36,922 bases of DNA from assembly GCF_900128515.1 (NCBI RefSeq), contig NZ_FQTP01000008.1, positions 1 to 36,922 on the forward strand, written 5' to 3'. Shown one piece after another: positions 8,652-14,685 of this stretch (its first letter is position 1; every line of letters begins with the position of its first letter). A model generated the notes under the pieces. That model ran no database searches and had not been told where the DNA came from. It saw nothing but the letters and a program-made list of their open reading frames with translations. The translations under genes and the position numbers were made by a program. The stretch comes from Bathymodiolus heckerae thiotrophic gill symbiont. Lineage in GTDB: Bacteria; Pseudomonadota; Gammaproteobacteria; PS1; Pseudothioglobaceae.

Positions 8652-9935
8652 TTACAGTTTGGTAAACACTCGTCCTGCTGCATCAATCGTTGCCTGAATG
8701 TCTTCGTCAGAATGTGCACTTGAAACAAAACCAGCTTCATAGGCAGAAGGTGCCATATAAATACCTTCTTCCAACATTAAGTGATAAAACTTTTTAAATC
8801 GATCAACGTCACATTGAGAGGTTTCATGAAAATTTGTTACCGCTGTAGAATCGGTAAAGAAAAGACCAAACATGCCGCCCACAACATTCGCCGTCATACC
8901 AATATTGTTTTCTTTTGCTTTGGCCAGGACTCCGTCAATCAAAGTTTTTACCTTTGCGCCTAATGTTTTGTAGAAGCCCTTATCTGCAGACAATGCTTCA
9001 AGCATCGCCAAACCTGCCGACATAGACATAGGGTTGCCTGACAATGTGCCCGCCTGATATACAGGACCTAATGGCGCAATTGATGACATAATCTCACGCT
9101 TGCCGCCAAAAGCGCCCACTGGCAAACCACCACCAATAATCTTGCCCAGTGTCGTTAAATCAGGCTTAACGCCATAAACCTCTTGAGCGCCACCAAGTGC
9201 TACGCGGAATCCCGTCATTACTTCATCAAAAATTAAAATCACCCCGTGTTCGTCACAAACTTCGCGCAAGCCTTGTAAAAATCCATCAATGGGTGGAATG
9301 CAATTCATGTTGCCAGCTACTGGCTCAACAATAATACAAGCCACTTCATCGCCAACTTCGCTTAAAGTTTGACGAACCTGAGCGATATTGTTGTATTCTA
9401 GGGTTAGTGTATGCTTGGCAAAATCAGCTGGCACGCCTGGCGAGGTTGGTACGCCAAGTGTCAATGCACCCGATCCTGCTTTAACCAATAAAGAATCAGA
9501 GTGGCCATGGTAACAACCCTCAAATTTAATGATTTTATCTCTGCCAGTGTGTCCACGAGCAAGGCGAATCGCACTCATAGTTGCCTCTGTACCGGAGCTA
9601 ACCATACGCACCATTTCAATAGATGGTACCAATTCACACACTTTTTCAGCCAGTGTGGTCTCGATTTGCGTTGGCGCACCAAATCCCAATCCATTTTCTA
9701 AAGTAGCTTTAACGGCATTGACCACATCTTGATTAGCATGGCCAAGAATCATAGGACCCCATGAAGCAACATAATCAATATATTTTTTATCATCTACATC
9801 AAATAAATAGGCGCCTTTGCCTTTGGTAAAAAAGATCGGATTTCCACCAACACCATTAAAGGCACGAACGGGCGAGTTAACCCCACCTGGAATAACTTTT
9901 TTTGCTTGTTCGAATAAAATATCTGATTGACTCAT
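8652..9935 (-). CDS. hemL: Glutamate-1-semialdehyde 2,1-aminomutase
   Basis: HemL is the PLP enzyme that turns glutamate-1-semialdehyde into 5-aminolevulinate in the C5 heme pathway. The 427-residue protein has [12 protein letters not shown] near the start, [15 protein letters not shown] for phosphate binding, FDEVMTGFR, and the PLP lysine Lys265 in [14 protein letters not shown]. Its length equals that of typical HemL (426-430). I start at the ATG at 9935, which has AGGAG six bases upstream; the open frame continues 21 codons further but that part overlaps the end of holB and has no family match. The gene follows holB by 8 bp. Confidence 0.96.
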
Positions 9936-9943
9936 GCTTGCTC

Positions 9944-10957
9944 CTAATAATTTGCGCTGATTTGTGGATACTCTTTTAAATGGGTAATATGTGACCACAC
10001 GATCAAGATATTATCCAATAATAATTTGAGGTTGACACTGGTTTTTGACAGTCTAATGGCTCGCTGAACATCGTCCAATAATTGAAATAAAAAATCTGAT
10101 CTCACATTGCCAATCACTTGATTGAGCTCTACTAGACCACCTTCTTCTTTTGTTGTCTTCAGTCTAATAGCCTCAATAATTAGATTCTGTAAACAAGCTA
10201 ATACCTCCAACTCGTTACCTTCAAATTCACTGATTTGATTGATCATCAATGGATGTGTAGCAATACTAAGTAGTTGGTTTTGATATGCCTGATAAGCAAT
10301 AAAACCGCCATCAGATAATTCACTCAATACTTTAAAAGGCACGCCATGTGTATTTTCAAGTAATTGAGCTACATCAAAATCAGCATTTTGAGTCTCACTT
10401 AACTGACTTGTTAGCCATTGCTGTGTCTGTTCGCTATAACTAGGTGCAATGTGAATATTCTGACAACGAGATACAATAGTTGTTGGCAAGTTTTGAACAT
10501 TATGCGCTAGAATGATAATCAGTGTATTTTCTCTTGGCTCTTCCAATGTTTTTAGCAAACTATTGGCAGCGTTAATATTCATCTGATCGCCATAAAAAAT
10601 AACGCCAATTTGTAAGTCATCGGCGGTTTTATTTAAAGCCTCGCAAAATGCACGAATTTGATCGATGCGGATATCTTTAGAACGATTCTTAGTTTTTTCA
10701 TTAATTTCACCTGCACGACAATAAATCATATTGGTGTAATTAGAGCGCCTAATCAATACTGGATGATCAAGCTCTTCAAGGATATTATCTCGTCGAATGA
10801 TTGAATCATCCTTAAGCAATATACCAACCAACTGCTGCATTAACTCAAACTTTCCAATTTTCTCAACACCGGTAATTAACAATGCATGTGGCAGATGATT
10901 TAAATCAACCATCTTTTGTAACTTTGAGAGTGCTTGATCGTGCCAGGGAAGATTCAT
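9944..10957 (-). CDS. holB: DNA polymerase III subunit delta'
   Basis: This 337-residue protein is the stator subunit of the clamp loader. The N-terminal AAA+ domain has a degenerate Walker A ([12 protein letters not shown]), as expected since delta' does not hydrolyse ATP. The block [10 protein letters not shown] is at 132-141, and the sensor-1 SRC motif, which acts as the arginine finger onto the neighbouring subunit, is at 163-165. The four-cysteine zinc module found in E. coli delta' is absent. The gene overlaps tmk by 4 bp, the tmk-holB order being conserved in gammaproteobacteria. Confidence 0.9.
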
Positions 10958-11571
10958 AAGCTTGCTAAAATTTGCTCAATTTGAGCACTGGTATGCTCTT
11001 TTGTCCTGGAGGAGTCAATCAGCTTAATGCGCTCTGGGTATTTTTCCGATCTAGCAATGTAAGCCTGTCGTACACGCTCAAAAAAATCCATCGCCTCAAG
11101 TTCGATCCGATCTTTTTTACCCCTTGATTCTACGCGTGACATGCCTTGCTCTACAGGGATGTCTAGTAACAATGTCATATCAGGTGTAAAGTCTTGCAAT
11201 ACCCACTGTTCTAATTGCTCAATACGCTCAGCATCAAGCCCACGACCACCGCCTTGATAAGCATAAGAAGCATCGGTAAAACGATCACTCAACACCCAAT
11301 CACCACGCTCAAGTGCAGGGATAATTTTTTCATGAATGTGTTCATTTCTAGCAGCAAACATTAGTAATAATTCACTATCACTATGCATAGATTTAGTTTT
11401 GGTACTGAGCAATAACTCACGAATTTTCTCGCCTAAATCTGTCCCACCAGGCTCTCGAGTTAAAATAACGTTAATACCTTTAGCTTGTAAATAATCACAA
11501 ATAAAGCTTATTTGTGTACTTTTTCCCGCCCCTTCAACGCCATCAATAGTGATAAATTTTCCTTTTTTCAT
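10954..11571 (-). CDS. tmk: Thymidylate kinase
   Basis: Tmk phosphorylates dTMP to dTDP for DNA synthesis. The 205-residue protein has the P-loop DGVEGAGKST at 10-19, the REPGGT base/sugar-binding loop, the DRFTDASYAYQGGGRG block, and an Arg-rich lid around SRVESRGKKDRIE. The lid carries the catalytic basic residues, as in E. coli-type enzymes. The stop overlaps the holB start by 4 bp (ATGA arrangement), and the start is only 5 bp after the pabC-mltG gene. That implies tight translational coupling along the operon. Confidence 0.96.
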   Translation of the reverse strand: MKKGKFITIDGVEGAGKSTQISFICDYLQAKGINVILTREPGGTDLGEKIRELLLSTKTKSMHSDSELLLMFAARNEHIHEKIIPALERGDWVLSDRFTDASYAYQGGGRGLDAERIEQLEQWVLQDFTPDMTLLLDIPVEQGMSRVESRGKKDRIELEAMDFFERVRQAYIARSEKYPERIKLIDSSRTKEHTSAQIEQILASL

Positions 11572-11576
11572 GGGTT

Positions 11577-13367
11577 TTATTTTAGATGCTTCTTGATGTT
11601 GGTTAAATGTTGTTTGTAAGTTTTTGCAAATGCGTGAGACCCATCTTTCTTAGCTACAAAAAATAGATATTCTGTTTTTAAAGGATGCATAGCAGCGGTT
11701 AAAGAATCTTGCCCTACTGATCCAATAGGTCCGGGCGGCAAACCCTTGTTTCGATAAGTGTTATAAGGGCTTTTAACCCAAAGATCTTTCTTACTCAGCT
11801 TGCCTGTATAAGCATCACCTAGAGCGTACACTACCGTTGGATCGGTTTGCAAGCGCATATTTTTTTTCAGTCGATTAATAAACACACCAGAGATCTTAGA
11901 TTTTTCAGCACTATTTGCCGTTTCTCGCTCAATCAAGGAGGCCAAAATCAGCGCCTGATTAGCGCTAGATAATGGATGATTTTTAACTCTACCTTTCCAA
12001 GCACTATCAAGTTTTTCTTGCAGAATAACATGCGCCCTATCCAGAACACTAACAACACTATCGCCATAATTAATTTGATAAGTATCTGGCCAAAAACTAG
12101 CCTCATAAGGCACTTCAGCGATTGAATTCTCCAATGTTTTGTCAAGCGAATATTTATTTGTCAAGGCCTTATTATTGCTAAGCAGTTGATAATATTCACG
12201 CACCGTCCTACCTTCGATTAAACTAATATTTCGAGTCGCCACATTAGCTGTTGAAAAATCTTTAAGCAACTGCCAGACACCCATTCCAGGGCTTACATCA
12301 TAATAGCCTGATTTTAATTGTGCATCTGCACCTGATAATTTTGCCGACCAAAGTACAAATAAACTCGAATTAACCAAGCCGTAACGCTTAAGATCATTTG
12401 CAGTTGAATAAATCGTTGCACCTTTAGGTAGTTCATAAATAGTGGCTTTAACGGTATTAATATTATTCGCCCAAAATGACCAAGCCAGTATTAAACCAAG
12501 TGCTAATAACAGCCCAAACTTTACAAAGCCTTTTTTAAGTCTTAAAGGTATTGAATTTTTTCGTTTAGAAAGGTATTTATCAAAATTATTTGAGAGCTTT
12601 TCAGTCAAACTATATTGGCTAAAATTTTGCTCATTAACCTGATGAACTGGCTTAATGCCGATTACACTATTGGTGATAAAAATTTCATCACAGCTGAGTA
12701 ATTCTTCCATACTCAAACTGCACACTTCTACTGAGATATTTAATTTTTTGGCCAAACCGATCACAGCCTGCCGTCTTGTACCTTCAATGCCACACACGTC
12801 TAAACTTGGCGTTAAAAGTACGCCATTTTTAAACGCAAATACGTTACCTTGACTAACTGAAATAACTTGACCTTGTGGATCAAGCATCAGGCATTCTTGT
12901 GTGTTTAGATTAGTACGCGCCAATATTTGCTCTAATCGATTGCAATGCTTTATTTCAGCCAGTAATTGATTCGTTGCATAACCACTAGCGCACAAACCTA
13001 AGGAATAGTTGCTCGCCAAATCTGGCATTTCAGAAACAATCACAATACGCGTTGGCTTAATATTTCTATCAAAGCCGTAGCCGCGGCTAGTCTCTCCACG
13101 AGAAAGAATAATCTTCACCACGGCATGATTTAATTTAGACAATGAAACTGCTTTAGCGATATCTTTTAACCACACCGATTGTTTAATTGGATTGATGTGC
13201 AGTCGTTGCGAACCTTTGTCCAATCGCGCAAAATGCTGCTGCGCTAAAATCAACTTGCCATCCTTTACCATGCAAGTTTCAAACAAACCGTCACCAAACT
13301 GAACTAAGCGATTAAACACGCTTAGTTTGCTTTGTTTTTTTCCATTAATTAAAATAACTGACTTCAT
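11577..13367 (-). CDS. PabC-MltG fusion: aminodeoxychorismate lyase plus endolytic transglycosylase
   Basis: One 596-residue frame holds two proteins that are separate neighbours in E. coli. Residues 1-262 look like a fold-type IV PLP enzyme of the PabC kind: QFGDGLFETC, RGYGFD, the PLP lysine Lys140 in IKHCNRLEQILAR, GNVFAF and a C-terminal block GIEGTRRQAV. PabC makes 4-aminobenzoate for folate. Residues 283-300 are a membrane helix. Residues 308-596 are MltG (YceG), which cuts nascent glycan strands: ASLIERETA holds the catalytic Glu region at 480-482, then SGVFINRLKKNMRLQTDPTV and YNTYRNKGLPPGPI. With PabC before the helix it stays in the cytoplasm while MltG faces the periplasm. The frame is continuous, with no stop or internal start signal that stands out. 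MltG is often mislabelled as aminodeoxychorismate lyase; here the true lyase part is really present. Confidence 0.88.
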   Translation of the reverse strand: MKSVILINGKKQSKLSVFNRLVQFGDGLFETCMVKDGKLILAQQHFARLDKGSQRLHINPIKQSVWLKDIAKAVSLSKLNHAVVKIILSRGETSRGYGFDRNIKPTRIVIVSEMPDLASNYSLGLCASGYATNQLLAEIKHCNRLEQILARTNLNTQECLMLDPQGQVISVSQGNVFAFKNGVLLTPSLDVCGIEGTRRQAVIGLAKKLNISVEVCSLSMEELLSCDEIFITNSVIGIKPVHQVNEQNFSQYSLTEKLSNNFDKYLSKRKNSIPLRLKKGFVKFGLLLALGLILAWSFWANNINTVKATIYELPKGATIYSTANDLKRYGLVNSSLFVLWSAKLSGADAQLKSGYYDVSPGMGVWQLLKDFSTANVATRNISLIEGRTVREYYQLLSNNKALTNKYSLDKTLENSIAEVPYEASFWPDTYQINYGDSVVSVLDRAHVILQEKLDSAWKGRVKNHPLSSANQALILASLIERETANSAEKSKISGVFINRLKKNMRLQTDPTVVYALGDAYTGKLSKKDLWVKSPYNTYRNKGLPPGPIGSVGQDSLTAAMHPLKTEYLFFVAKKDGSHAFAKTYKQHLTNIKKHLK

Positions 13368-13556
13368 GAGTAAGTATTATAATTCAGTGAATCTTTAAAG
13401 TAACACTGATAAATAAATCACCTTACCAATTTAAACAATATCACTTTTAATAGACTAAGTGTTGTTTAGGTAGATATTCCCACCCTTATGGTTAATTATG
13501 GTGCTAAAATCTTGAATTCGTAACAATTTATTAAATTTTAAAAAAGGGAGAGAAAA

Positions 13557-14262: not shown

Positions 14263-14685
14263 ATGAAGCCCATTTACCACAACCTAGAATTCGGCATTAC
14301 TTGCATTGACACGCAGCATATGCGACAAGATTTTGTCGCTGCTTACTTAATAGAGAATAATAACCGAGCTGCTTTTATTGACACTGGTTGTTATTTATCT
14401 GTACCCACCCTGCTAGCAACTTTAGAGGCTAAAAATATTAGCCGAGAATCGGTTGATTATATTATTCTCACCCATATTCATTTGGATCATGCGGGTGGTC
14501 ATCAAACCGATGAAAATCGCCATAAAGCTATTAAAGAATCGTTACTTAACTATCTGCTTGATATATCCACAAAACACGGCGTAATGCTTAATAAAGCGCA
14601 GCAAACAGAGTTATTTAAGGGTGATTTGGAAATCTGCGCACAAGGCTTAGGCATTTGGCTAGATAAAGAGGCTAGCTACCAGTAA
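14263..14685 (+). pseudogene. MBL-fold hydrolase with internal in-frame deletion
   Basis: This 140-residue frame begins like a metallo-beta-lactamase-fold hydrolase: FIDTGC, then the zinc motif LTHIHLDHAGG at about residues 69-79. Then, with no frame change, it jumps to a C-terminal-looking tail with helices (HKAIKESLLNYLLD) and AQGLGIWLDKE. MBL enzymes need about 200-300 residues, with later His and Asp ligands (the GH and GD blocks) that are absent here. The likely explanation is an in-frame deletion of the middle of the gene, leaving a non-catalytic remnant. There is no clear ribosome-binding site. It converges on the ppnP pseudogene with a 10-bp overlap. It could still make a small stable protein, but not a working MBL hydrolase as known. 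Confidence 0.7.

Follow-up and report, generated by a model that had tools for sequence, protein, structure and literature searches.

The window analysed here, a stretch of 36,922 nucleotides from the Bathymodiolus heckerae thiotrophic gill symbiont, carries on its minus strand a gene (11577..13367) that encodes PabC, a linker, a membrane helix and MltG in one open frame of 596 codons plus stop, starting with ATG. A sequence-only reading of this DNA had proposed that pabC and mltG form a single frame at this place and was correct in its coordinates, though it named no strand; open reading frame, Pfam and NCBIfam domains and homologues all agree. The PabC part (residues 1-260, 12588..13367, minus strand) matches the Pfam family Aminotran_4 over residues 27-244 (E 2.5e-45, 155.5 bits against a cut-off of 28.5) and lies above the cut-off of the NCBIfam model pabC_Proteo, TIGR03461 (235.6 bits against 176.85). 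It is followed by a basic linker (residues 261-280, 12528..12587, minus strand), delimited by the alignment of 36 fused proteins, its charges and dN/dS over its 20 codons, and by a transmembrane helix (residues 281-300, or about 279-300; 12468..12527, minus strand). The remainder is the MltG (YceG) part, predicted to be periplasmic (residues 301-596, 11580..12467, minus strand), which matches YceG, PF02618, over residues 312-593 (E 3.8e-79, 266.5 bits against 32.4) and exceeds the cut-off of the NCBIfam MltG model TIGR00247 (262.3 bits against 103.4). A second PabC equivalog model, NF004761, and the E. coli-type MltG model NF007619 score below their own NCBIfam cut-offs (234.5 against 260 and 209.6 against 532), and the stricter NCBIfam models PRK06092 and PRK10270 are likewise both matched under theirs. 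In comparisons with the PDB, the PabC part (query residues 1-262) aligns over residues 5-258 with E. coli 1et0 (E 6.3e-38), and the MltG half (the last 297 residues) aligns over half-residues 51-297 with E. coli 2r1f (E 5.6e-54). The fused gene is the sole MltG match in the window's genome, where the other matches to the PabC half are class IV aminotransferase-like frames of 26% and 24% identity. The PabC half is predicted to be an aminodeoxychorismate lyase, which would work as a homodimer and yield p-aminobenzoate and pyruvate, and the MltG half an endolytic glycan-cleaving enzyme.

Both catalytic signatures pointed out in the sequence-only reading are found in this one protein. The PLP lysine K140 (codon 12948-12950, minus strand; in IKHCNRLEQ) aligns with K140 of E. 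coli PabC (1et0, 1i2k), a member of the same fold family whose PLP lysine is likewise numbered 140, and the catalytic glutamate E480 (codon 11928-11930, minus strand) is the first Glu of SLIERETA, a motif aligned in 2r1f. Each residue is invariant across the 36 fused proteins aligned, a set that includes the window's protein and one protein (G014) truncated at residue 533. The single membrane helix that had been suggested is recovered both by hydropathy, which places the top hydrophobic 19-mer of the window protein at residues 280-298, and by AlphaFold2, which places a helix at 279-300. Lysines and arginines outnumber aspartates and glutamates by 7 to 1 in the 20 residues N-terminal to 280-298 and by 2 to 1 in the 20 residues C-terminal to it. 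In the other 35 fused proteins the best hydrophobic stretch lies at the matching place, and in 34 of them lysines and arginines are more numerous before the helix than after it, with a tie in G058. With the positive side of the helix predicted to be cytoplasmic, this charge bias argues for the orientation first proposed, in which PabC would lie in the cytoplasm and MltG in the periplasm. The AlphaFold2 model, built with 35 sequences, is of moderate quality (mean pLDDT 77.2, pTM 0.47), and pLDDT falls below 50 at residues 131-145, around K140, and at residues 530-549. All of the top 50 Foldseek matches listed are fold-type IV aminotransferase relatives covering the PabC half, including the aminodeoxychorismate lyases of E. 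coli and P. aeruginosa (target TM 0.83-0.84 for 1i2k and 1et0). An MltG match is absent among these 50, and the assignment of the MltG half therefore rests on sequence. Residues 10-96 of the MltG half align weakly with Lmo1499 (4iiw; 18.2 bits, i-Evalue 0.011) and may at most hint at a membrane-proximal LysM-like domain.

Several genes follow the fused gene on the same strand. Thymidylate kinase, tmk (10954..11571, minus strand; open reading frame, Pfam and NCBIfam), begins 5 nt downstream, an arrangement with tmk downstream on the same strand that is found at 72 of 79 family loci. It is followed by holB, encoding DNA polymerase III delta prime (9944..10957, minus strand), which scores above the Pfam cut-off for DNA_pol3_delta2 and below the NCBIfam models' own cut-offs; hemL lies on the same strand downstream of both. 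When read from its listed GTG, the hemL frame (8652-10957, minus strand) overlaps holB by 55 nt, and its true start is probably the ATG of MSQSDILF. A perfect TATAAT is located at 13376-13381 (minus strand), 8 nt before the pabC-mltG ATG. Since a Shine-Dalgarno sequence is not evident at this ATG, the arrangement fits a leaderless transcript or one with a very short leader. Elsewhere in the window, a 140-aa frame (14263-14685, plus strand) matches only positions 3-61 of a 196-position metallo-beta-lactamase model and appears to be a hydrolase that was cut short or lost an internal part. As to the folate pathway, folP is found above its cut-off in the window's genome. The two pabB family scores (298.7 and 284.4) both lie below the cut-off of 328.4, so that the enzyme upstream of PabC is not firmly identified; PabB/TrpE-like matches are located at G000:C28:15317-16225 and G000:C1:48045-48878.

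The fused architecture is common to much of the family, a recurrence far beyond chance, and this answers the question of its presence in relatives that the sequence-only reading had raised. Among the 83 genomes of 11 genera that made up both the family and the order sample, 35 encode the full-length fusion without a stop, five of them in single-contig assemblies (G001, G055, G063, G064, G068). The junction is crossed in one frame in three more genomes, G014, where the frame is open to residue 533, G077, where it is broken inside MltG, and G082, where the contig ends inside MltG. The genera differ in how far the fusion has been kept. Genus g5 (29 genomes) comprises three fused genomes (G026, G040, G042), 23 with separate genes and three with neither gene at the locus. 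At the split g5 loci the MltG frame overlaps the PabC end in another frame (20 of 20 examined out of the 23), and in the four junctions that were read (G017, G018, G022, G041) the MltG ATG lies inside the last PabC codons. Genus g9 (12 genomes) contains six fused genomes. In G066 and G071 of this genus the genes are separate, meeting at TAATG and ATGA without a linker, G070 likewise has separate genes, on two contigs, with a PabC stop and an ATG of MltG's own, and G067 and G072 retain PabC with a mere remnant of MltG; G062, whose locus lies at contig ends, was left out of the fused/split assignment, as G009 and G074 were left out of the state assignment. In genus g6 (12 genomes), which we take to be clam symbionts, the fusion is intact in G055. 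MltG carries three stops in G050 and a deletion in G052, and the frame is shifted after the helix in G051; in G047 and G053 the frame shifts within the linker, and each half keeps an intact frame. The other six genomes of this genus (G045, G046, G048, G049, G054, G056) have kept PabC, together with fragments of MltG or no trace of it (tblastn).

Outside the family, adjacent but separate pabC and mltG genes are common. Among the matches listed, only two genomes of the class sample (369 genomes), G000 and G068, both family members, and only G000 in the phylum sample (397 genomes) have the full-length frame without a stop. At least 21 rows of the class sample and at least 19 of the phylum sample show PabC and MltG matched in a single frame that is interrupted by one or more stops. 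The two samples overlap, and since the matches listed are the best ones (at most about 150, with up to three candidates scored per genome), a fusion of highly diverged sequence may have escaped. Inspection of the DNA at 20 non-family loci, three of them without PabC, revealed no fusion. Eight of these had been candidates on account of a long MltG frame (G298, G355, G712, G672, G663, G783, G630, G408) and were rejected: in five, PabC either stops short of MltG or is read in a different frame, and three have no PabC in the stretch examined and YceG as the only Pfam domain. The 12 further outgroup loci all have separate genes. The long frames of G126, G270, G104, G340, G261 and G324 were left out of the DNA inspection. 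At L171, L172 and L173 (G672, G663, G783), 280-430 open residues without a Pfam domain precede YceG and are possibly open by chance.

The whole of these observations is very probably best explained by one bifunctional single-pass membrane protein that was fused once in an ancestor and undone in several lineages. Most likely, a single fusion occurred in the ancestor of the family (Thioglobaceae by member names), where pabC and mltG, side by side or overlapping in a tmk-holB operon, would have been joined when the stop between them was lost or when a small shift occurred at the junction. The gene would later have been split again in most of g5 and part of g9, and by the frameshift in two g6 genomes. 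In an rpoB tree of 60 family members and seven outgroups, the deepest family branch is the fused G082 (support 98/94), followed by g5 and then by the rest. Five state changes are counted on this tree, and four suffice if the split g9 rows form one clade; holding six g9 rows together, G062 among them, is not rejected (p-AU 0.463), and the g9 splits could be one event. One clade of all lineages minus the split g5 rows is rejected (p-AU 0.006), which does not agree with a single fusion that was never undone. It was also considered whether the three fused g5 genomes received the gene by horizontal transfer. They group with split g5 in both the PabC tree (support 91) and the MltG tree (98), and transfer from other genera is therefore not indicated.

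A history with two or three independent fusions, in the g5 trio, in G082 and in the rest, is unlikely but deserves to be weighed. Fusion appears to be easy, given the many non-family genomes of the class and phylum samples in which adjacent pabC and mltG share a frame and are parted by one to three stops. The g5 trio junction also looks like the overlapping one seen in split g5, differing from it slightly in length, and the linkers of G082 and of the trio are not clearly like the others. However, the fused state is found on the deepest branch, linker lengths align with few gaps, and a R/K-K-N...L-K-P-K-K pattern recurs in g1, g9 and g10. By parsimony alone on the rpoB tree, one fusion followed by fission in g5 needs just one step fewer than three fusions. 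The shortest history by this count is a fusion in the ancestor that was later undone in places, and a single origin is the more likely reading.

Purifying selection on both halves is shown by substitution rates: in eight close fused pairs dN/dS is 0.04-0.14 for PabC and 0.06-0.11 for MltG, although several dS values exceed 1 and are saturated. In the same pairs dN/dS is 0-0.33 for the linker of 20 codons and 0.08-0.28, with one value undefined, for the helix. Past the linker frameshift, MltG of G047 and G053 shows a dN of 0.016 and a dS of 0.116. Among the six genomes whose MltG has decayed, PabC pairs covering four (all but G048 and G056) give values of 0.22-0.29, so that PabC is still constrained there. 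A membrane tail kept by PabC after MltG decay was considered as proof that the tether matters and was rejected on reading the junctions, because G046 and G049 have shifts within the helix, G045 has a stop there and G048 carries a deletion; only G054 and G056 have a whole-looking tail.

For the single bifunctional protein, the following mode of working is proposed. The PabC half would convert aminodeoxychorismate to p-aminobenzoate for folate in the cytoplasm, the basic linker and one helix would span the inner membrane, and the MltG half would cut nascent glycan strands in the periplasm. The halves probably work independently, and the fusion would entail their synthesis in a 1:1 ratio and the placement of PabC at the membrane, which may matter. 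The protein would accumulate as a single undivided chain. That one gene yields two products, with internal initiation or proteolysis in the linker freeing PabC and MltG so that the fusion exists at the DNA level only, is improbable. The linker is the least conserved part of the protein, and since lineages that have two separate genes thrive, cleavage would be tolerated. Yet the window gene has no in-frame ATG, GTG or TTG at residues 255-330, the nearest start-type codon being a TTG at residue 254 without an evident Shine-Dalgarno sequence; an internal start other than this TTG would therefore give an MltG devoid of its helix, and internal initiation yielding membrane-anchored MltG is unlikely. 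Nor is any start-type codon conserved at the junction across the 36 sequences, in which the highest ATG share of any column at residues 250-345 is 4 of 36, and linker dN/dS is below 0.2 in seven of the eight pairs, albeit over 20 codons only.

More doubtful still is the idea that PabC serves as a built-in cytoplasmic control module whose dimerisation or substrate state sets the activity or placement of MltG; if true, it would couple folate supply to glycan-strand length. A regulatory role is thinkable because, according to the available text of PMC12369325, the cytoplasmic segment of E. faecalis MltG is extended and phosphorylated, and this phosphorylation modulates MltG. Since separate genes have re-emerged repeatedly and PabC has persisted where MltG decayed, the tether seems not to be needed, and we would argue from these gene histories that it is dispensable. 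An assembly or sequencing artefact that erased a stop or frameshift from the junction, where the sequence-only reading had advised looking for one, is rejected: the window's assembly does consist of 258 contigs, but the open junction is shared by 37 independent genomes of the family, among them five single-contig assemblies, with low dN/dS.

Among characterized systems, PabC of E. coli occurs free and soluble, while in the fused protein it continues through a linker and a membrane helix into MltG. The MltG of E. coli has a short tail ahead of its helix, whereas the cytoplasmic side of the fused protein would be a whole PabC enzyme; the catalytic glutamate motif is shared with E. coli MltG/YceG (2r1f). 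The catalytic residue of the E. coli enzyme is given as E218 in the accessible part of PMC8135044. A cytoplasmic N-terminal addition before the helix is a likeness to MltG of E. faecalis and S. pneumoniae, for which an extended cytoplasmic segment is described in the portions available of PMC12369325 and PMC8135044. In contrast to the folded enzyme family at this position in the fused protein, the E. faecalis segment is predicted to be disordered and is phosphorylated by IreK (PMC12369325, available text). In P. aeruginosa the same neighbours, PA2964-PA2963, are adjacent but separate pabC and mltG genes rather than one open frame as in the window, and a possible connection between folate and peptidoglycan is drawn from gene order alone in the accessible part of PMC11898565. 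PDB 2r1f, the structure of E. coli MltG, was deposited as 'Predicted aminodeoxychorismate lyase', which is the function of its gene neighbour; this mislabelling of MltG with PabC's name is a warning to annotators.

No account of a PabC-MltG fusion was found in the literature searched, with domain-architecture databases outside its scope. The pabC-mltG gene order is known, and their fusion is a case of operon-neighbour fusion, itself a known kind of event. Being under purifying selection across the family, the fusion constitutes stronger evidence than gene order for at least joint expression of the two enzymes. The re-split lineages provide a natural comparison in which the same two enzymes are tethered or free in close relatives, so that the effect of the tether is directly testable in this family.
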